This document shows, one piece after another, positions 4,601-51,303 of a stretch of DNA of 64,000 nt. The notes under the pieces are model-generated. The model saw only the letters and a program-made list of their open reading frames with translations, did not search any database and was not told the origin of the DNA. Source of the stretch: Bacteroidota bacterium (GTDB lineage: Bacteria; Bacteroidota; Bacteroidia; Cytophagales; Cyclobacteriaceae); assembly GCA_018267215.1 (NCBI GenBank), contig JAFDYX010000014.1, positions 23,261 to 87,260 of the forward strand, written 5' to 3'. A program made the position numbers and the translations under genes. The first letter of the stretch is position 1. Each line of letters opens with the position of its first letter.

Positions 4601-5050
4601 GTTTACGTTCATAATAGGCTGCTCAGAAATATCAATCTCTCGAATGACCGGATCGTCTTTTAAATCGGTGGGCAGGTTAGGTTTGGCACGATCCACAGCA
4701 TCCTTCACATCCTGCTTGGCCTTGTCCACATCTACATTGGTTTGAAACTCGATGATGATGTTGGAGAAACTCTGCACCGAGTTGCTCTTAATTTTTCTGA
4801 CACCCGAAATAGACTTACATTCTTTTTCTATTTCTTTGGTGATCAGGTTTTCCATATCGGAAGGCGAAGCGCCCGGATAAATGGTAGCCACAAAAATTTG
4901 CGGAAACACCACCTCCGGAAAATTTTCCTTCGGCAAGCTGATGTACGTGAAAATACCGGCCAAACAGATAATTACTGTGGCCACGTAGATACTGATTTTA
5001 TTGTCTATGGCCCAACTGGTGGGCTTAAACTCTTTTTCGATGTCTTTCAT
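1646..5050 (-). CDS. RND efflux transporter permease (AcrB/CzcA family)
   Basis: A 1134-residue inner-membrane proton antiporter of the resistance-nodulation-division superfamily. Visible marks are the N-terminal membrane helix, porter motif YPGASPSDMENLI near 58-70, and the proton-relay Asp pair in GIVVDDAIVVIENTHR (Asp406, Asp407). It is longer than the usual 1020-1060 residues: between the two repeats (about 497-560) there is a His/Asp-rich stretch AHDHDHES followed by two extra hydrophobic helices, and a further hydrophobic insert lies near the C-terminus. It is the last gene of tetR-tolC-hlyD-RND. Substrate cannot be read from the sequence; drugs, solvents or cations are all possible. 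Confidence 0.93.
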   Translation of the reverse strand: MKDIEKEFKPTSWAIDNKISIYVATVIICLAGIFTYISLPKENFPEVVFPQIFVATIYPGASPSDMENLITKEIEKECKSISGVRKIKSNSVQSFSNIIIEFQTNVDVDKAKQDVKDAVDRAKPNLPTDLKDDPVIREIDISEQPIMNVNLSGDYDLQTLKKYADQMQDAIESIREIRRVDIIGALTREIQINIDMFKLAGAGVSLDDVAQAVAGENVIIPGGQLSVGGMKRSLTVNGEFKSAEQLAEIVVGSTKGGKIYLKDIAEVVDSHKEQESFARLDGKNVITLNVVKRSGENLIIASDQINEVVEHFKADILPPGTDVTITGDQSENTRTTLHDLINTIIIGFVLVVLILMFFMGATNAFFVAMSVPISSFIAFLMFPTLGYTFNMMTLFSFLLALGIVVDDAIVVIENTHRVFDNGKVPIRKAAKLAAGEVFLPVLSGTLVVLAPFVPLAFWPGVIGKFMVYLPITLIVVLLASLLVAYIINPVFAADFMTAHDHDHESKSKFTRGFKVTAIVMGALALMSYIVGWAGMGNFTVFMFLLYSLYHFYLVRVISHFQTDLWPGVQERFKKIIVYILKKRRPIWVVVGVIGLFIFSIVFTAVRKPGVTFFPNGEPNFIYAYITMPIGTDQRVTDSVTRSVEKRVVGVVGQHNPIVKSIISNVAIGAAEDRFAGNNAQPHLGKVTVAFVKFADRHNQSSREYLDKIREVVKGVKGCEISVDQEAHGPPTGKPINIEVAADDFDVLVETSDKVKRYLTSLQVAGVEELKSDFESNKPEIDIVIDREKANREGISTAQIGLALNTAINGKEVSKFRDANDDYDITLQMNERYRNDINTLMNLPLTYRDMSMGGQVRQVPMSAVAKAEYSNSYAGIRRIDQKRVVTISSNLLSGYNANNVVAEIQKKLRDFPTPDGVTIKMTGEQEDQKETSDFLGVAFMLAFGLIFMILVTQFNSTSKPVIILSEILFSFIGVLIGFSLFKMEISIVMSGVGVMALAGVVVRNGILLVEFTDLLRSQGIELREAIAEATKTRMTPVLLTAMAATLGLIPLAIGFNIDFVALFSELNPHIYFGGDNVAFWGPLSWTMIFGLIFGTFLTLFLVPVMYLLVAKLKERVRKWRGVEITTMENIAPSQA

Positions 5051-8924: not shown

Positions 8925-9475
8925 TCATCATAAACCTTTTGCAATCTTTTCCTCAGCGAAAGAATGGCATAGCGCTTGCGCGAAAGCAGGGTGTTGATTG
9001 AAATACCTGTCTCTTCCGCTATTTCGCGGAATCCTTTTTCTTCAATTTCATTCTGAATAAATACTTCGCGCTGCTCGCTGGGCAGTTCGTCCAGCGCATC
9101 GGTGATTTCATCCCACAAGGCTTCGCGCAATAATATAGACTCCGGGCTGTTGTCGAAGTCTGGCAAAATTTCGTGGAGCGTAAGCGGAGCTTCCTCTTCG
9201 TTATCGCTGAAAAGTTCAAAACCACTGTGCTTAGGCCGCGAAGCATTTTGCCGGTAACGGTCAATTATTTTGTTGCGCGCCACACTGTAAAGCCAGGATG
9301 TAGCCCGGTCTATGGATTCGATCGTTTCGAAGCCGGCCACAAACTGATAGAATACATCCTGCAGAATGTCTTCCGCTTCTTCCGCAGACGACACACGACT
9401 GCGGATAAAGCCAAACAGCTTGCCCTTCTCCTGACGGAATGTGTTTTCCTGCACTTGCAACATAGCCCAGTCCAT
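8909..9475 (-). CDS. RNA polymerase sigma factor, ECF subfamily
   Basis: A 188-residue sigma-70 family factor with region 2 (about 18-80; EEAEDILQDVFYQFV and WLYSVARNKIIDRYR) and region 4 (about 125-180; LDELPSEQREVFIQN and GISINTLLSRKRYAI). There is no region 1 or 3, which is diagnostic of extracytoplasmic-function sigma factors. The 3' end has grown into the heptamer array, which supplies the last residues. The gene is followed by a small two-helix membrane protein, perhaps its regulator. The start at 9475 (MDWAML) could also be the second Met at 9463. Confidence 0.92.
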   Translation of the reverse strand: MDWAMLQVQENTFRQEKGKLFGFIRSRVSSAEEAEDILQDVFYQFVAGFETIESIDRATSWLYSVARNKIIDRYRQNASRPKHSGFELFSDNEEEAPLTLHEILPDFDNSPESILLREALWDEITDALDELPSEQREVFIQNEIEEKGFREIAEETGISINTLLSRKRYAILSLRKRLQKVYDELSNE

Positions 9476-9641
9476 TGCTTTCGTCTGATTTGTTGTTAAA
9501 GACGAAGCTGCGTTCGGATTATTTTAAATTGAAACAAAAATTCTGTAAAGTTGAAAACTGATTGGGTATGGCCGGTTGTGCAGTCTGTCATTCTTTAGAA
9601 TGTAAGCGGGCGCATAACCTAAAAAGCAGAAAAGACAACTC

Positions 9642-10433
9642 ATGCCGGAAATTAAATACGATACCAGCAATTTACAATACTATAAAAACGGAAACGGAGC
9701 TAAAACGATTCTTCTTTTTCATGGATTTGGACAAGACCATCACGCTTTTGATACGTGGATAGAAAGAATGAAGGGTGAATACACACTGTACGGGTTCGAT
9801 CTTTTTTTTCACGGAGCAAGCGACTGGCACGGCAGCCGGCCGGTAGAGAAAGAAGATTGGAAAAATATATTGGAAATCTTTTTCCAGCAGGAGAGCATTC
9901 ACGAATTTGAAATGGCGGGCTTCAGCTTGGGAGGAAAATTTGTGTTGGCTACGCTGGAAGCTTTTCCGCAGCGAGTAAAAAAAATCTGGCTGCTGGCGCC
10001 CGATGGTATCAAAATCAACTTTTGGTATCGCCTGGCTACTTATCCTTTATTAACAAGGGCGTTGTTCCACAGTTTTATTTTTAGGCCTAAAATATTTTTT
10101 GCACTCATCCATTTTTTTGATCGGTTTGGTCTGGCATCAAAATATTTATTGCGGTTTGCGTTATCGCAAATGGATACGGAAGAGAAGAGAAAGCGGGTGT
10201 ACCATAGCTGGATATATTTCCGTCATCTGCGTTTTGATATGCGCGAAGTGGCTGCACACATCAATTCGCATCACATACCACTTACTGTGTGTGTTGGCAA
10301 ACACGATAAAGTAATTCCGGCAAAGGATATGCACCGGCTGTTAAAGTTTGTGCCTCACGGTAAATTTGAAGTGCCTGATACAGGGCATAATCAACTGATA
10401 GAAAAGGTCTTTCCATATTTCGATAGAAAATAG
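9642..10433 (+). CDS. Alpha/beta hydrolase fold protein
   Basis: A 263-residue single-domain alpha/beta hydrolase. The oxyanion region is LLFHGFGQD (His27), the nucleophile elbow is GFSLGGKF (Ser95), the acid is Asp222 in VGKHDKVIP and the base is His249 in PDTGHNQL, so the catalytic triad is complete. No signal peptide, so it should act in the cytoplasm. Family members include esterases, lipases and C-C hydrolases; the substrate is not readable. The gene is divergent from the sigma-factor gene across a 166-bp gap that must hold both promoters. Confidence 0.85.
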   Translation: MPEIKYDTSNLQYYKNGNGAKTILLFHGFGQDHHAFDTWIERMKGEYTLYGFDLFFHGASDWHGSRPVEKEDWKNILEIFFQQESIHEFEMAGFSLGGKFVLATLEAFPQRVKKIWLLAPDGIKINFWYRLATYPLLTRALFHSFIFRPKIFFALIHFFDRFGLASKYLLRFALSQMDTEEKRKRVYHSWIYFRHLRFDMREVAAHINSHHIPLTVCVGKHDKVIPAKDMHRLLKFVPHGKFEVPDTGHNQLIEKVFPYFDRK

Positions 10434-29516: not shown

Positions 29517-30763
29517 TCTTTTAAAATTGAATGGCAATACTTCATGATTTTTTCTGTGGCGCCCAAGTTTTCTTGCACATACGATTTGGTTACTTCACAG
29601 GCAAGCAGAAAACTTTCGGGTCGCGAAATCATCAGTTCGTATTTCATTTTCAGGTCGGCATAGCCGTTCACTTCAAAAGCGCCTCCGCGCATAATCAGGT
29701 CTGTGGCTTCCTGGTATTTGTGATAGCTCTTGTCGCCAAAGAAAACAGGAATGCCATAACAGGCTGCCTCTAAAATGTTGTGCAGCCCTTTGCCGAAGGC
29801 CCCACCCACAAAGGCAAACTCGCCATAGCGATAGAGTTGGGCAAGCATGCCGATGTTATCAATAATCAGCACGGAGTAGCTTTCGATGTTTTCTTTTTGC
29901 TCGGAGAAACGGCAAGTTTTTACCTGAAGCGATTTTTCAATATCTAAAAGGAATGACTCGGTTATTTCGTGCGGGGCAATGATGAATTTTAATAGCCCAT
30001 CATTCTCATTGATAAAAGGAGCAAGGGCCTCCATATCTTCAGGCCAGCAACTGCCGACAACAAATGTTTTTTGATTGTCTTTAAACTGCTTGACTAATGC
30101 TACTTCTTTTCCGGATCGGATGATTTCATTGACGCGGTCGAACCGGGTATCTCCGGCAACTTCTACTTGGGTGATGCCAATAGAGGAAAGTAATTTTTTG
30201 GTTTCTGAATTTTGTGTAAAAAAGTAATCGAAATTTTTTAGCAACTGGCGGAACAGGCCTCCATACTTCTTAAAAAAAATCTGGTTAGGCCGCATGATGC
30301 ACGAGGTGGAGATAATTTTTACCCTTGCTTTTTTAAGAGCCTCAGTATAGTGAAACCAAAATTCGTATTTGATGAATATGGCCAGCACCGGTTGTGTGAT
30401 GGCTACAAATTCCTTAGCCTGCCGGGGTGTATCCCACGGCAAATAGAAAATGAAATCAGCTTGCGAATAATTTTTTCTCACTTCGAATCCCGAGGGAGAA
30501 AAAAAAGTAAGGAGGATTTTTATTGGTGGGTATTCCCGCTTAATGGATTCGATAATCGGGCGCCCTTGTTCAAACTCTCCCAACGAGGCACAATGTACCC
30601 ACACCACTTTTTCATTTTTGTGGGATTTAAAAGATGATTTTATCTTCTTAAAAATAGACCGCCTGCCGGTTACAAACAGTCGCGCTTTTTCATTAAAGGG
30701 AACGGCCACAATAAACAGAAGGCGCAGCAGATTGATAAAAACAGTATAGATAGCGCGTTGCAT
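29513..30763 (-). CDS. waaA: 3-deoxy-D-manno-octulosonic acid transferase
   Basis: A 416-residue Kdo transferase (GT30). Its features are a membrane-anchoring N-terminus (YTVFINLLRLLFIVAVPFN), the family motif WVHCASLGEFEQGRPII with the catalytic Glu, and C-terminal FAFVGGAFGKGLHNILEAAC plus GIPVFFGDKSYHKYQEA. It adds Kdo to lipid A precursor at the cytoplasmic face of the inner membrane and needs the CMP-Kdo made from the product of the kdsA operon at 48-51 kb. It is translationally coupled to rsgA. Confidence 0.93.
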   Translation of the reverse strand: MQRAIYTVFINLLRLLFIVAVPFNEKARLFVTGRRSIFKKIKSSFKSHKNEKVVWVHCASLGEFEQGRPIIESIKREYPPIKILLTFFSPSGFEVRKNYSQADFIFYLPWDTPRQAKEFVAITQPVLAIFIKYEFWFHYTEALKKARVKIISTSCIMRPNQIFFKKYGGLFRQLLKNFDYFFTQNSETKKLLSSIGITQVEVAGDTRFDRVNEIIRSGKEVALVKQFKDNQKTFVVGSCWPEDMEALAPFINENDGLLKFIIAPHEITESFLLDIEKSLQVKTCRFSEQKENIESYSVLIIDNIGMLAQLYRYGEFAFVGGAFGKGLHNILEAACYGIPVFFGDKSYHKYQEATDLIMRGGAFEVNGYADLKMKYELMISRPESFLLACEVTKSYVQENLGATEKIMKYCHSILKE

Positions 30764-46381: not shown

Positions 46382-47113
46382 CTACCAAAAGAGCCCGAAC
46401 AACGAAGGTTTCTTCTCTTCGCCCGGCTCATTTTTCTTTCGCCAGCCTTTGAGCAAAACAAATTGTTTGAATTTCACCCACCGCTCAAACACGCGGTTGT
46501 CGCCCCGCAAGCTTCTGCCCCAAAAGTTTTCGGGTTTAGCTTCGTGGGCTTTTTTCTCGGCTGCTTCCCGGGCTTTTTCTACGGGGTCGTACAACATGGC
46601 GGTGCACATACAGTTTTTGCGTTCCTTGCTTACGAGTATCTCATAGTTTACACAGCTTTGGCATCCTTTCCAGAAGTTGTCGTCAGAGGTAAGCTGCGAA
46701 TAAGTTACCGGCTCGTAGCCCAAGTCGGAGTTGATCTTCATGACCGCCAGGCCGGTGGTGAGGCCAAAAATTTTGGCATCAGGATATTTTTTGCGCGAAA
46801 GCGCGAAGACTTTCTGCTTAATCAGTGTGGCTACACCCGTTTTTCTAAAGGCAGGGGAAACAATGAGGCCGCTGTTGGCTACAAACTTTTCGTGCTCCCA
46901 CGATTCGATGTAGCAAAAACCTACCCACTCGTTCGATTGTGTAAGAGCTATCACCGCCTTGCCTTCACTCATCTTTTCTTTGATGTAGTCGGGCGAGCGT
47001 TTGGCAATGCCCGTGCCGCGAGCCTTGGCAGACTCCGCCATTTCGTTGGTAATGATTTCAGCAAAATACGCATCGGCTTCGGTTGCCTCGCGTACGATTA
47101 TTGAGTTGTCCAC
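46382..47113 (-). CDS. GNAT acyltransferase, candidate N-acyl-glutamate synthase
   Basis: A 243-residue protein with an N-terminal GNAT fold (1-145) and the acyl-CoA loop FRKTGVATLIKQ at 89-100. An unusual C-terminal part holds four cysteines, Cys151, Cys154, Cys168 and Cys170 (C-x2-C-x13-C-x-C), then a Lys/Glu helix. It starts GTG at 47113. It is the first gene of the arginine operon, upstream of argG, as in Bacteroides, where a similar gene fills the missing argA role (established by genome context, not to my knowledge by enzyme data). I infer it acylates glutamate, perhaps with succinyl-CoA. The Cys cluster could bind zinc or a cluster. Confidence 0.8.
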   Translation of the reverse strand: MDNSIIVREATEADAYFAEIITNEMAESAKARGTGIAKRSPDYIKEKMSEGKAVIALTQSNEWVGFCYIESWEHEKFVANSGLIVSPAFRKTGVATLIKQKVFALSRKKYPDAKIFGLTTGLAVMKINSDLGYEPVTYSQLTSDDNFWKGCQSCVNYEILVSKERKNCMCTAMLYDPVEKAREAAEKKAHEAKPENFWGRSLRGDNRVFERWVKFKQFVLLKGWRKKNEPGEEKKPSLFGLFW

Positions 47114-47493: not shown

Positions 47494-47709
47494 ATGGACA
47501 CACTTTTAATTCAAGTAAATAGCGATGTGGCATATAGGCTTTTGCAGGATTTGGAAAACCTAAACGTAATCAAAGTTCTAAGAAAGGAGAAGGCTACAGG
47601 CCGAAAGCTTTCTAAGAAGTATGCCGGAATGTTGCCCAAAGCAGTGGCAGAGGAATTACAAAATTATGTAGAAAAAAGCAGAGAAGAGTGGAGTCGGAGA
47701 GATTTTTGA
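47494..47709 (+). CDS. Antitoxin-like small protein
   Basis: A 71-residue protein upstream of and overlapping (22 bp) a PIN-domain gene. It starts MDTLLIQVNSDVAYRLLQDL, ribbon-helix-helix-like in its first strand and helices, then a linker (RKEKATGRKLSKKYAGMLPK) and a C-terminal helix likely to bind the toxin. The typical small, basic, overlap-coupled layout of type II antitoxins supports the call; no exact family is recognised. Confidence 0.8.
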   Translation: MDTLLIQVNSDVAYRLLQDLENLNVIKVLRKEKATGRKLSKKYAGMLPKAVAEELQNYVEKSREEWSRRDF

Positions 47710-48080
47710 TTGATTCAAATTCGGTGATTGATTATCTCGGAAACAAATTGCCATCCAAGGGTGTCGTATTTATGAACGGAGTTATAGATGCAGTTCCAAA
47801 CATATCAGTAATAACGAAGATTGAAGTGCTTGGCTTTAGCGCAAATAAAAAACACACTCAATTATTAGAAGATTTTATAGCCGACTCAAACATCATTCTA
47901 TTGACTGACCCCATTATTAATAAATGCATTGAACTACGTAAAACTTACAAAAAAATAAAGTTGCCTGATGCAATAATTGCAGCCACTGCTTTAGTCAATC
48001 AATGGAAGCTTATTTCAAGGAATGTTGAAGACTTTAAAGCCCTAAGCGAATTGGAAATAGTCAATCCACATTCTTTGTGA
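47688..48080 (+). CDS. PIN domain ribonuclease toxin (VapC-like)
   Basis: A 130-residue PIN domain starting at GTG 47688 within the 3' end of the antitoxin gene. The acidic site is seen as Asp9 (FLIDSNSVIDYL), Glu46 (SVITKIEVLGF), Asp94 (KLPDAIIAAT) and Asp115 (RNVEDFKAL). PIN toxins cleave tRNA or rRNA. The pair sits between the arginine and Kdo operons. Whether it is an active toxin is untested. Confidence 0.9.
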   Translation: MESERFLIDSNSVIDYLGNKLPSKGVVFMNGVIDAVPNISVITKIEVLGFSANKKHTQLLEDFIADSNIILLTDPIINKCIELRKTYKKIKLPDAIIAATALVNQWKLISRNVEDFKALSELEIVNPHSL

Positions 48081-48133: not shown

Positions 48134-48985
48134 ATGAGTAAAAAAATAGTTCGCGTTGGCAACATCGAATGTGGCGCTGACGATCTTTTTGTGATCTCAG
48201 GCCCGTGTGTGATCGAAGACGAAAAAATCATGATGACGACAGCCGAAAAACTAAAAGAAGTTTCGGAAAGAATGAACATCAAGATCATTTATAAGTCTTC
48301 CTTCCAAAAAGATAACCGCAGCAGCCTAAAGTACTACAATGGTCCAGGCCTAGACAAGGGCGTGAAGATTCTGGCAAAAATAAAAGAGCAATTTGGATTC
48401 TCCCTGCTCACCGACATACACTATCCCGAGCAGGCCGTTGCGGCAGCTGAGGTGGTAGATGTGCTGCAAATTCCGGCTTACCTCTGTATGCAAACGGCAT
48501 TGATGGTGGCCGCAGCCAAAACAGGCCGGGTTATCAACATCAAGCACGGACAGTTTCTCGCCCCCGACAACATGAAGCATCCTGTTACCAAATGTACCGA
48601 AGCCGGCAACGATCAAATCATCCTGACCGAAAGAGGCTATACGTTTGGCTATAATGATTTAATAGTTGACCCGCGCAGTTTTTATCACCTAGGCAAACTG
48701 GGTTACCCCGTAGTGTTCGACATTACCCACTCCATTCGGAAATATGGTATTCCCAGCGCTGACGCCAAGGGCGGTGCACGCGAATTTTTACCCGTACTTT
48801 CACGCGCAGGAGTTGCCTCAGGTGTAGATGGTGTATTTATCGAGACCCACCCCGACCCGGAAAAAGCATTGTGCGATGCAGCCAGCCAGCTTTGCGTGTA
48901 CGACCTCGAAGAGTTTTTGAAACCCCTCATCGAACTACATACCATCGAAGTAAAGTATCGTCAACAAGATGTTGTATTAAAATAA
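48134..48985 (+). CDS. kdsA: 3-deoxy-8-phosphooctulonate synthase
   Basis: A 283-residue aldolase-type synthase condensing PEP with arabinose-5-phosphate to Kdo-8-phosphate. The core motifs are LFVISGPCVIEDEKIM, YKSSFQKDNRSSLKYYNGPG, ADAKGGAREFLPVLSRAGVA and FIETHPDPEKALCDAASQL. It heads an operon with the transaldolase/CBS gene 41 bp downstream and a KdsC-like HAD after that. The plus-strand promoter candidate is at 48087. Confidence 0.96.
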   Translation: MSKKIVRVGNIECGADDLFVISGPCVIEDEKIMMTTAEKLKEVSERMNIKIIYKSSFQKDNRSSLKYYNGPGLDKGVKILAKIKEQFGFSLLTDIHYPEQAVAAAEVVDVLQIPAYLCMQTALMVAAAKTGRVINIKHGQFLAPDNMKHPVTKCTEAGNDQIILTERGYTFGYNDLIVDPRSFYHLGKLGYPVVFDITHSIRKYGIPSADAKGGAREFLPVLSRAGVASGVDGVFIETHPDPEKALCDAASQLCVYDLEEFLKPLIELHTIEVKYRQQDVVLK

Positions 48986-49026: not shown

Positions 49027-50040
49027 ATGGAATTATACCTCGACTCAGCCGACCTGAAAGAAATTGAAGACGCTTTTCAATTAGGCTTCCTTACCGGATT
49101 AACCACGACACCCACATTCATGCACCGCGGTGGTGTAACCGACATTGATGGACTGATTGTGAAACTTTCTAAGATCGTTCCGGTGCTTCAAATTGAAGCT
49201 CTGGGCGATACAGCCCAAGATGTGCTGAAAGAAGCTAAGCGCCAATTGAACTTGGGACTGGATCCTCAAAAAACAGTTTTCAAAATCCCTGTTTCGTTGG
49301 AAGGTGTAAAGGCGTGCAACCTGTTGCGCAAAGAAGGATTACTCGTGAACGTACATTTAATTTACACATTACAGCAAGCCTACATGGCCATGCAGGCCGG
49401 AGCCTCTTACGTTTGCCCGTTGGTAGGCCGCTTGCAAGATCAAGGACATGATGCACTTGACTTGGTGCATCAATGTGTATTTGCCGTAGATCACTATGGC
49501 TACGATACCAAAGTGATGTTTTCTTCTGTGCGCAATGCCGAGCACGTGCGCAACGCCATTAATATAGGCGTACACACTATTACCGTGCCTTGGAAGATCA
49601 TGAAATCCCTCACCGAAAATAATTTTACTGCGCTGGGTACGCAACAATTTATCGAACACACCCGCCTGATGACGGTGAAGGTGAAAGATGCCATCAACAA
49701 AGTAAATCCGGTTGTTGAGGCGAGCACATCGCTGTCTGATGCCATTGTGAAAATGACAGAGTATGGTTTTGGTGCCATTACCGTAACGAATGGAAGCGGC
49801 CAGGTGGTGGGCGTATTTACCGATGGCGACCTGAGAAGAAAAATCCAACAAGATGGCCGCAATGTATTGAGCCAAAAGATGGGCGACTTCAAATACAATG
49901 CTCCCATTTCCATAGATGCCAACTCACTATTGACAGAGGCAGCTGATATTTTCAAAAAATCTAAGGTAGATACCATTCTTGTAACAGAGAATGGCAAGCC
50001 TGCCGGCATGTTGGATATTCAGGATCTGGAAGTCGATTGA
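49027..50040 (+). CDS. Transaldolase/fructose-6-phosphate-aldolase domain fused to a KdsD-like CBS pair
   Basis: A 337-residue fusion. Residues 1-220 match MipB/Fsa-type transaldolases: start MELYLDSADLKEIE (Asp6), Schiff-base Lys86 (FKIPVS), Arg135 (PLVGRLQDQG) and the Ser166-Ser167 region. Two catalytic positions depart from E. coli FSA: Glu57 in place of Gln59, as in transaldolases, and Thr29 in place of Asn28. Residues 227-337 are two CBS motifs closest to those of KdsD (GVFTDGDLRR; GMLDIQDL). It lies between kdsA and a KdsC-like gene. The substrate is unknown; I infer a role in arabinose-5-phosphate supply or its control. Confidence 0.85.
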   Translation: MELYLDSADLKEIEDAFQLGFLTGLTTTPTFMHRGGVTDIDGLIVKLSKIVPVLQIEALGDTAQDVLKEAKRQLNLGLDPQKTVFKIPVSLEGVKACNLLRKEGLLVNVHLIYTLQQAYMAMQAGASYVCPLVGRLQDQGHDALDLVHQCVFAVDHYGYDTKVMFSSVRNAEHVRNAINIGVHTITVPWKIMKSLTENNFTALGTQQFIEHTRLMTVKVKDAINKVNPVVEASTSLSDAIVKMTEYGFGAITVTNGSGQVVGVFTDGDLRRKIQQDGRNVLSQKMGDFKYNAPISIDANSLLTEAADIFKKSKVDTILVTENGKPAGMLDIQDLEVD

Positions 50041-50066
50041 GTTTGAATAATCCCGATACCATTTTT

Positions 50067-50747
50067 ATGGAACTGGGCGGCACATTCTGCCGCCCTTTTG
50101 CTGATCTTAAAAATAGGCTCCCTTCCATCAAGGCCTATATTTTTGATTGGGACGGTGTATTTAATGATGGAGTAAAATCAAGCCAAGGCGGAAGTTTGTT
50201 TAGCGAAGTAGATGCCATGGGCACTAATATGCTACGCTTTGGTCACTGGCTCAGCCACGGGCAGCTTCCCCGGGTTGCCATTATTACGGGAGAAGAAAAT
50301 CCGGCCGCACAGCATCTGGCACAACGCGAAAAATTTGATGCCATCTATTCCAAATGCTCCAACAAGCTCATTGCCTTCGATCATTTTTTGAAAACCTATG
50401 CACTGCATGAAGAGGAGGTAGCTTTTGTTTTTGATGATGTACTTGATCTGGCTGTGGCCGATCGCTGTGGTCTACGTTGCATGGTAAAACACCACGCTTC
50501 TCCTATGCTGCAACAGTATGTTATGCTGGAAAATCAGGCTGAGTATATTTCTTCCGGCCATGCTCACGGAGTGCGCGAAATTTGTGAGTTGATTTTGTCA
50601 GCAAATAAAAAGTATGATGAGGCAGTCAGCTTAAGGAGTGCATTTGCTCCGGCTTACCAAAACTACTTACAGGAAAGACAACGAACCAATGTAAAAAATT
50701 TTGTTTTGAAAGAGGGGAAGATAGAGGAGCATGGAAAAACTGATTAA
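50067..50747 (+). CDS. kdsC: HAD family phosphatase, KdsC-like
   Basis: A 226-residue haloacid dehalogenase protein; the ATG at 50067 is my choice, a TTG at 50037 overlapping the upstream stop is the alternative. Motif I is FDWDGVFNDG (Asp27, Asp29), motif II AIITGEEN (Thr74), motif III SNKLIAF (Lys100), and motif IV VFDDVLDLAV (Asp123, Asp124) has Phe in place of the usual Gly. It is longer than standard KdsC (about 160-190), with a C-terminal helix. Between a transaldolase/CBS gene and dedA, it is probably the Kdo-8-phosphate phosphatase. Confidence 0.8.
   Translation: MELGGTFCRPFADLKNRLPSIKAYIFDWDGVFNDGVKSSQGGSLFSEVDAMGTNMLRFGHWLSHGQLPRVAIITGEENPAAQHLAQREKFDAIYSKCSNKLIAFDHFLKTYALHEEEVAFVFDDVLDLAVADRCGLRCMVKHHASPMLQQYVMLENQAEYISSGHAHGVREICELILSANKKYDEAVSLRSAFAPAYQNYLQERQRTNVKNFVLKEGKIEEHGKTD
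50075..50099 (+). terminator. Intrinsic-terminator-like hairpin inside the start of kdsC
   Basis: A perfect 8-bp stem GGGCGGCA with TGCCGCCC, loop CATTC, then TTTT. It lies a few codons into the HAD gene, in the coding strand direction. It could attenuate the operon between the transaldolase/CBS gene and kdsC, or be accidental. Confidence 0.45.
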
Positions 50748-51303
50748 TGAGTTTGGCTATCTGGCGTTGATGGTCGGTACTTTCTTTGAAGGTGAGACCG
50801 CCATTCTGACGGCATCGTCTTTGATACACCGCGGTATTTTTGCTTTTCCTTGGACTGTGTTGGCTGCTTTTTCCGGCTCCTTCATCAGCGACTGGGCTTA
50901 TTATCTGATCGGCCGACTGAACGGCCAGGTGTTTATTGCCAAGCGACCTAAGCTGATGGAAAGGGTAACGCCCGTCACTAATTTTTTTCATCATCATAAA
51001 TTTCAAATACTTTTCAGCTACCGTTTTCTGTACGGTTTCCGGATCATCATCCCGTTGGTGATTGGCATGAGCGGGCTTCGGCCAACCAGCTATCTTTTTT
51101 ATTCTATAGTTACGGGCTTGCTGTGGGCTACGGTAGTCAGCACATTGGGATATTGGGCGGGGCGATTGCTCAATGTTGATTTGCAAACATTTGAGAAAAA
51201 TTTTTTACTCATCATGTTAGGGTTCGCCCTGTTTGGGTTGCTGATCGGGTACATCGTTAAGAAAGTGGCTGCCAAAAGCATGGGCTCAGAGCCTCAGAAA
51301 TAA
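50731..51303 (+). CDS. DedA family membrane protein
   Basis: A 190-residue integral membrane protein of the DedA (SNARE-associated Golgi) family. Motifs: FGYLALMVGTFFEGETAILT, then AAFSGSFISDWAYYLIGR and the FSYRFLYGFRIIIPLVIGMS motif with the two Arg residues, and the C-terminal helices. DedA proteins are proposed lipid or undecaprenyl-phosphate flippases. It starts within the last codons of the HAD gene (17-bp overlap), so it belongs to the Kdo operon. Its stop overlaps the stop of the convergent DUF2279 gene by 10 bp. Confidence 0.9.
   Translation: MEKLINEFGYLALMVGTFFEGETAILTASSLIHRGIFAFPWTVLAAFSGSFISDWAYYLIGRLNGQVFIAKRPKLMERVTPVTNFFHHHKFQILFSYRFLYGFRIIIPLVIGMSGLRPTSYLFYSIVTGLLWATVVSTLGYWAGRLLNVDLQTFEKNFLLIMLGFALFGLLIGYIVKKVAAKSMGSEPQK

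Follow-up and report, generated by a model that had tools for sequence, protein, structure and literature searches.

This locus raises the question of how a bacterium supplies D-arabinose 5-phosphate (A5P) to the synthesis of Kdo, a widespread sugar of Gram-negative lipopolysaccharide (LPS) for which A5P supply is an early step, when the place of kdsD in the Kdo cluster is taken by a gene of different make. In the window (that is, the whole stretch of 64,000 nucleotides of a Bacteroidota genome that was analysed), a gene for a transaldolase/FSA-type barrel joined to a CBS pair lies between kdsA and a kdsC-like gene. We hold with moderate confidence that this TAL-CBS protein makes A5P for KdsA, having displaced KdsD, probably through class-I aldolase chemistry and with feedback through the CBS pair. 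The features concerned are as follows, in positions of the window.

About 30134–30628, minus strand: match to waaA/kdtA (Kdo transferase), PF04413, E 1.6e-44 (G000:C5:53394-53888)
46382–47113, minus strand: GNAT-like gene flanking the cluster (Pfam)
47688–48080, plus strand: PIN-domain ORF immediately 5' of kdsA (Pfam PF01850)
48134–48985, plus strand: kdsA (Kdo-8-phosphate synthase), KDO8P_synth 337.1 bits, above the equivalog cut-off of 314
49027–50040, plus strand: TAL-CBS fusion gene, 337 aa, ATG start, proposed A5P-forming replacement of KdsD
49027–49674, plus strand: transaldolase/FSA-type barrel, residues 1–216 (Pfam TAL_FSA, AF2, Foldseek)
49282–49284, plus strand: codon of the Schiff-base Lys86
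49681–49845, plus strand: first CBS motif, residues 219–273, with GVFTDGDLRR (Pfam CBS)
49879–50028, plus strand: second CBS motif, residues ~285–334, approximate limits (Pfam CBS, AF2 secondary structure)
50037–50747, plus strand: kdsC-like HAD phosphatase, best KdsC match E 6.1e-21, below the cut-off
50731–51303, plus strand: VTT/DedA-family membrane gene flanking the cluster (Pfam)

The arrangement that the earlier note had described, with kdsA before the fusion and a kdsC-like gene after it, was borne out by profile matches of these neighbours: kdsA lies 41 bp upstream, and the kdsC-like gene has a TTG start that overlaps the fusion stop, with an in-frame ATG at 50067. The waaA match suggests that Kdo is in use in the window's genome (3.38 Mb in 35 contigs, 96.5% complete), which also has a kdsB (206.4 bits, above the cut-off); given the presence of kdsA, kdsB and waaA, the Kdo pathway looks complete apart from a recognisable KdsD. 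Homologous loci were drawn from GTDB species genomes as the best 80 of 491 candidates, a set in which plain transaldolases may be included, and all 80 encode full-length fusions with 75–93% identity to that of the window. By blastp against the proteins of the window and of a second fusion genome (G091), kdsA was found near 64 of these 80 and a kdsC-like gene near 64, with kdnA in 41, kdnB in 41 and kdsB in 23, counts that include several loci cut by contig ends. In the retrieved flank of 16 of the 80, some ending at contig ends, kdsA was unseen, and in one genome (G190) the fusion and kdsA lie on different contigs.

The composition that had been read from the sequence, a KdsD-like CBS pair on a transaldolase/FSA domain, holds up against Pfam, NCBIfam and PDB. 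The Pfam model TAL_FSA (PF00923) matches residues 3–204 (E 1e-33; 117.4 bits against a cut-off of 27) and two stretches match CBS (E 7.8e-17), with no Pfam match to a SIS domain within the protein. In NCBIfam, fsa_talC_mipB (TIGR00875) scores the transaldolase part at 152.9 bits, below its cut-off of 245.95, and the barrel stays under every FSA/TAL equivalog cut-off displayed; the kpsF/GutQ model (TIGR00393) matches at positions 153–266 (that is, the CBS half only), with 68.5 bits against a cut-off of 203.7. Among PDB sequences, the CBS part matches 4o9k best (E 1.6e-13), an entry that bears the label arabinose 5-phosphate isomerase. Scored with a profile built on KdsD CBS pairs of the phylum, ten fusions reach 54–68 bits, and two other CBS proteins of the genome 43 and 26. 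An AF2 model of the fusion (60-sequence alignment; mean pLDDT 88.3, pTM 0.64) has the transaldolases 3s0c and 3r8r as its top Foldseek matches (probability 1.00, TM-score to target 0.90). Compared with KdsD/KpsF/GutQ (TIGR00393), the fusion has the same KdsD-type CBS pair with FTDGDLRR and probably stands in the pathway place of KdsD, but lacks the SIS domain and has an unrelated catalytic domain. Judged from these profiles and from the active-site residues, the family belongs to the transaldolase superfamily as a diverged line that carries a CBS pair of the KdsD type, and it fails both the transaldolase and the KdsD equivalog tests. Chance or mis-assembly was ruled out as its origin: there are 86 intact proteins including that of the window, and since the 85 further full-length homologues contain no internal stop, the fusion is no assembly artefact.

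The earlier note had held that absence of kdsD from the rest of the genome would favour its replacement, and in support of this view no recognisable KdsD turned up when the window's genome was searched with the kpsF and SIS models. The kpsF model matched three places, all with the CBS half only (CBS-only match, E 6.9e-19), and the SIS matches were GlmS (two SIS domains of one protein, by eye), GmhA, a GmhA-like protein, MurQ and Pgi/PMI. The GmhA-like protein (L003), which at 107.3 bits stays under the gmhA cut-off of 209.45, is absent from the kpsF-model matches and could in principle be a SIS-only isomerase.

Gene order points to the place that kdsD has left. Among 11 kdsD loci read from other genomes of the phylum, six (L127, L128, L131, L133, L134 and L138; L131 and L133 named by eye) have the order recQ–kdsD–manC, in which manC is a mannose-1-phosphate guanylyltransferase-like gene. 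In the window's genome recQ adjoins manC, with 259 bp from recQ to the first in-frame Met of manC, and tblastn of ten KdsD proteins against this gap gave no kdsD remnant (one chance-level match, E 0.67). Given these neighbours and the lack of a remnant between them, kdsD is gone from its ancestral-looking place. Another fusion genome (G440) has a degenerate kdsD at the ancestral site (partial kpsF match, E 1.3e-56), which has lost much of the CBS part and the HPGG motif, the histidine of which we take to be catalytic. Its identity to the kdsD of L127 is 52.6%, against 77.0% for that of Chryseolinea; the corresponding values for G440 and Chryseolinea are 84.1 versus 85.5% for recQ and 68.8 versus 68.0% for manC. 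This decay is what relaxed selection on KdsD alongside TAL-CBS would look like. The kdsD at 4695–5603 of L138, in a fusion genome, has a frame that is still open and has lost conserved motifs; it is possibly a snapshot of gene replacement.

The two enzymes came out separate when 395 genomes of the phylum were searched, with at most five candidates scored in each. Full-length fusion homologues (61–100% identity) occur in six genomes from four families (G000, which is that of the window, G146, G190, G091, G292 and G385), and the next-best genome gave a barrel-only match (E 1.6e-42). KdsD was found in 283 of the 395, comprising 277 above the kpsF cut-off and six at E 9.6e-52 to 2.0e-44; the best match in the other 112 was E 1.6e-19 or weaker, and all six fusion genomes are among these (that is, the fusion in 0/283 KdsD-bearing genomes and KdsD in 0/6 fusion genomes of this set). 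Fisher's test of 6/112 KdsD-negative against 0/283 KdsD-positive genomes gives p = 4.7e-4, for genomes that are not independent (G000 and G146 belong to one genus, G091 and G292 to one family). The search for kdsA covered 118 genomes (the 112 and the six of intermediate score) and placed it above the cut-off in 11 of the 112, namely the six fusion genomes and G023, G200, G272, G303 and G358; on the assumption that all 283 KdsD genomes have kdsA, 6/11 against 0/283 gives p = 5.4e-10, with the same non-independence. In the five other fusion genomes of this set, the best kpsF matches (E 1.6e-19 to 8.5e-16, positions unlisted) are at the level of the CBS-only match in the window's genome, and 18 of 22 SIS places were assigned (all but L166, L167, L171 and L173): ten to GlmS by frame length only (612–692 aa), five through NCBIfam and three to MurQ by eye. 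The six genomes of intermediate kpsF score (G230, G238, G347, G351, G279 and G378) are kdsA-positive, and their matches may be single-domain A5P isomerases or fragments.

The separation is less strict in a second collection of 50 genomes chosen from the best 80 of the 491 candidates, one of which (L059) is apparently the MAG behind G146. KdsD is absent from 44 of these fusion genomes (best E 8.3e-20 or weaker), although single absences are weak evidence because many fusion genomes are incomplete MAGs. A normal KdsD elsewhere, which the earlier note had named as counting against its proposal, is lacking from the window's genome, yet intact-looking KdsD proteins score above the cut-off in five of the 50 (G409, G411, which is Chryseolinea serpens, G417, G419 and G420). 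The fusion and KdsD can therefore coexist, and these five genomes, which may be intermediates, are the main counter-evidence to strict replacement. Conversely, neither KdsD nor the fusion was detected in five of the 11 kdsA-positive, KdsD-negative genomes, in assemblies of 40–350 contigs (completeness: G023 100%, G200 100%, G272 96%, G303 91%, G358 66%). Contig gaps or a third source of A5P are possible explanations, the latter in G023 and G200 because these are rated 100% complete and yet neither enzyme was detected.

Both groups of genomes (that is, those with both enzymes and those with neither) lend something to a reading that we consider improbable, in which the fusion yields some other aldose phosphate or a side product, KdsA makes a Kdo variant or obtains A5P otherwise, and the loss of KdsD is coupled to the fusion through another reaction. 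The kdn genes bear on this reading from both sides. Named through PDB 5k8b (8-amino-3,8-dideoxy-manno-octulosonate transaminase, E 3.4e-129) and 5k8c (Kdo 8-oxidase, E 2e-121), respectively, kdnA and kdnB are present in L043, in L046 and, among the best 80 loci of the 491, in 41. This points to amino-Kdo LPS as a common trait of these environmental bacteria and, as a different product would have it, to frequent modification of the pathway product. However, the labels of these relatives (Kdo 8-oxidase and 8-amino-Kdo transaminase) imply that Kdo, and hence A5P, is still needed; moreover, inspection by eye of the ORFs listed next to the window's cluster shows neither gene, and the kdsA of the window passes its equivalog cut-off. 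Replacement of kdsD, as first proposed from the locus alone, is strongly supported by the absence of the gene from the genome, the empty site, the exclusion in 395 genomes and the decayed kdsD beside one fusion, and from these genome comparisons we regard a non-orthologous replacement of KdsD by TAL-CBS as very probable. Some environmental bacteria seem to have swapped KdsD for an unrelated transaldolase-like enzyme with the same type of regulatory tail.

What the barrel may do was addressed by aligning 86 fusions (that of the window, five from the 395-genome search and the best 80 of the 491) with 26 plain transaldolases of the phylum (the 24 best-scoring from the 395-genome search, one from L132 and one from the window's genome). 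Asp6, Thr26, Glu57, Lys86, Asn108, Arg135, Ser167 and Arg169 are invariant in all 86 fusions, and their equivalents are the same in all 26 plain transaldolases. Also invariant in 86/86 are Thr28, His110, Cys130, Leu132, Phe165 and Ser166, where the 26 plain proteins have Asn, Thr, Ser, Phe, Ala/Val/Ser and Ala; Escherichia coli TalB agrees with the plain proteins except for Gly at 165. Lys86 and Asp6 align with Lys85 and Asp6 of FSA and with Lys132 and Asp17 of TalB, and the canonical donor-pocket and water-site residues (TalB N35, T156, S176 and F178) are replaced in the fusions by T28, H110, C130 and L132. In TalB, Asn35 and Ser176 presumably bind the C1-hydroxyl of dihydroxyacetone. No standalone barrel with a fusion-type active site was found among the 24 best-scoring plain transaldolases and the two others.

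For FSA, the excerpt available of PMC13259622 describes a donor-derived intermediate contacted by Asp6 and Asn28, donor dihydroxyacetone stabilised by Asn28 and Ala129, a catalytic water held by Gln59–Thr109–Tyr131 and phosphate attracted by Arg134 and Lys168. By comparison with these residues, the fusion has retained its lysine, its Asp and its phosphate site, with changes in the donor pocket (T28, C130) and in the water site (H110, L132). Two departures from E. coli FSA had been claimed for the window's protein, of which Glu57 stands (it aligns with TalB Glu96 and FSA Gln59) and Thr29 does not, the residue at FSA Asn28 being Thr28. Relative to the short transaldolase/FSA family (PF00923; Bacillus subtilis 3r8r, Thermoplasma acidophilum 3s0c and E. 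coli FsaA), the fusion has in common the barrel fold, the Schiff-base lysine, Asp6, Glu57 of transaldolase type and Asn108 (Gln59 and Leu107 in FSA), and Arg135 and Arg169 in the phosphate site (Lys168 in FSA for the latter); it differs in six active-site positions, in its scores below the equivalog cut-offs, in its CBS pair and in its location in a Kdo cluster.

The same residues bear on a further reading, to which we give very little credence: that the fusion senses or regulates without any turnover of its own, or is an ordinary transaldolase that happens to sit in this cluster, A5P then coming from an unrecognised isomerase such as L003. CBS pairs are regulatory, L003 is a SIS protein with no assigned role and the homology of the fusion to transaldolases is clear; however, L003 is missing from the kpsF-model matches, a separate canonical transaldolase with a normal active site is encoded on another contig of the window's genome (TIGR00875, 278.6 bits, above the cut-off of 245.95), and the catalytic residues are kept in 86/86 fusions. 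The pure sugar-phosphate sensor that the earlier note had entertained is unlikely because of this invariance. An ordinary transaldolase misplaced in the operon was rejected as first choice, given the canonical enzyme elsewhere in the genome and the six active-site differences.

If TAL-CBS has indeed replaced KdsD, aldolase-type chemistry is the likely means, and the residues make aldol chemistry plausible. As A5P is F6P minus C1, a barrel that keeps the lysine and the phosphate site and has a changed donor pocket would be suited to handling A5P: the pocket would no longer fit the C1-hydroxymethyl, C1 of A5P would sit on Lys86 at the spacing of C2 in F6P, and the Schiff base would form with the C1 aldehyde in place of the C2 ketone of F6P. 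The carbon could come from glycolaldehyde and D-glyceraldehyde 3-phosphate (G3P) by aldol addition or, as would make better sense for flux, from ribose 5-phosphate (R5P) by a retro-aldol/aldol sequence via enzyme-bound glycolaldehyde. Most cells contain little free glycolaldehyde, which speaks against simple aldol addition and makes the R5P route at least as likely as net condensation. CBS feedback would be exerted by a product of the Kdo pathway, which the pair probably senses; 4o9k, we assume, holds CMP-Kdo.

Relatives with the same fold provide precedents for this chemistry. In the excerpts available, FSA is reported to form A5P from glycolaldehyde and G3P (PMC6298115), and FsaA to yield A5P only, whereas TalB F178Y yields A5P and R5P (PMC9947464). 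The transaldolase fold is therefore capable of forming A5P, and in one relative A5P and R5P are connected via glycolaldehyde and G3P. The use of E. coli FsaA and TalB F178Y as A5P aldolases is a laboratory one (PMC6298115 and PMC9947464, as excerpted), whereas the fusion would be a natural Kdo-pathway enzyme that differs in its active site and carries a CBS pair. For the scheme in full we see about an even chance: that a natural Kdo pathway draws its A5P from a transaldolase-fold class-I aldolase acting through a Lys86 glycolaldehyde imine, that this enzyme (perhaps an R5P 2-epimerase) has a KdsD-type product-sensing CBS pair, and that it spread among several families as kdsD was lost.

The main rival to the aldolase is an isomerase of ribulose 5-phosphate (Ru5P), in which Glu57 and His110 would serve as acid/base on an enediol in the manner of triosephosphate isomerase, Lys86 would have an electrostatic or spectator role and no C–C bond would be cleaved. 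Ru5P is abundant and is the substrate of KdsD itself. Glu57 and His110 are invariant in the 86 fusions, including the best 80 of the 491, and sit at two of the three positions that hold the catalytic water in FSA (Gln59 and Thr109; excerpt of PMC13259622). Against an isomerase stands the retention of Asp6, Asn108 and Schiff-base Lys86 in the same 86 proteins, and the four-carbon spacing between Lys86 and the phosphate would suit a C1-imine of A5P or R5P better than a C2-imine of Ru5P. We know of no transaldolase-fold sugar isomerase, and on balance consider this reading unlikely.

The impression that no enzyme of this composition had been described was upheld in open-licence PMC full text, in which no description of a TAL-CBS fusion in Kdo synthesis was found. 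If the A5P-forming role is true, a non-homologous A5P enzyme would correct the reading of many genomes (at least 80 loci; 50 distinct genomes) and would clearly exemplify the replacement of an enzyme with retention of its type of regulatory domain. An A5P aldolase from nature would have practical value as well: in the excerpt available of PMC9947464, the authors conclude that FsaA binds glycolaldehyde too weakly to sustain carbon flux and name the search for an alternative Ara5P aldolase as an option.

Around the cluster, GNAT-like relatives lie near the fusion in eight and VTT/DedA relatives in six of the best 80 loci of the 491, all among the closest homologues (L047–L054), and a PIN-like ORF adjoins kdsA at 9399–9782 of the G091 locus (L043; by eye). 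Across the same 80 loci, identity to the proteins of the window is 39–72% for the kdsC-like protein, 75–93% for the fusion and 80–97% for KdsA.
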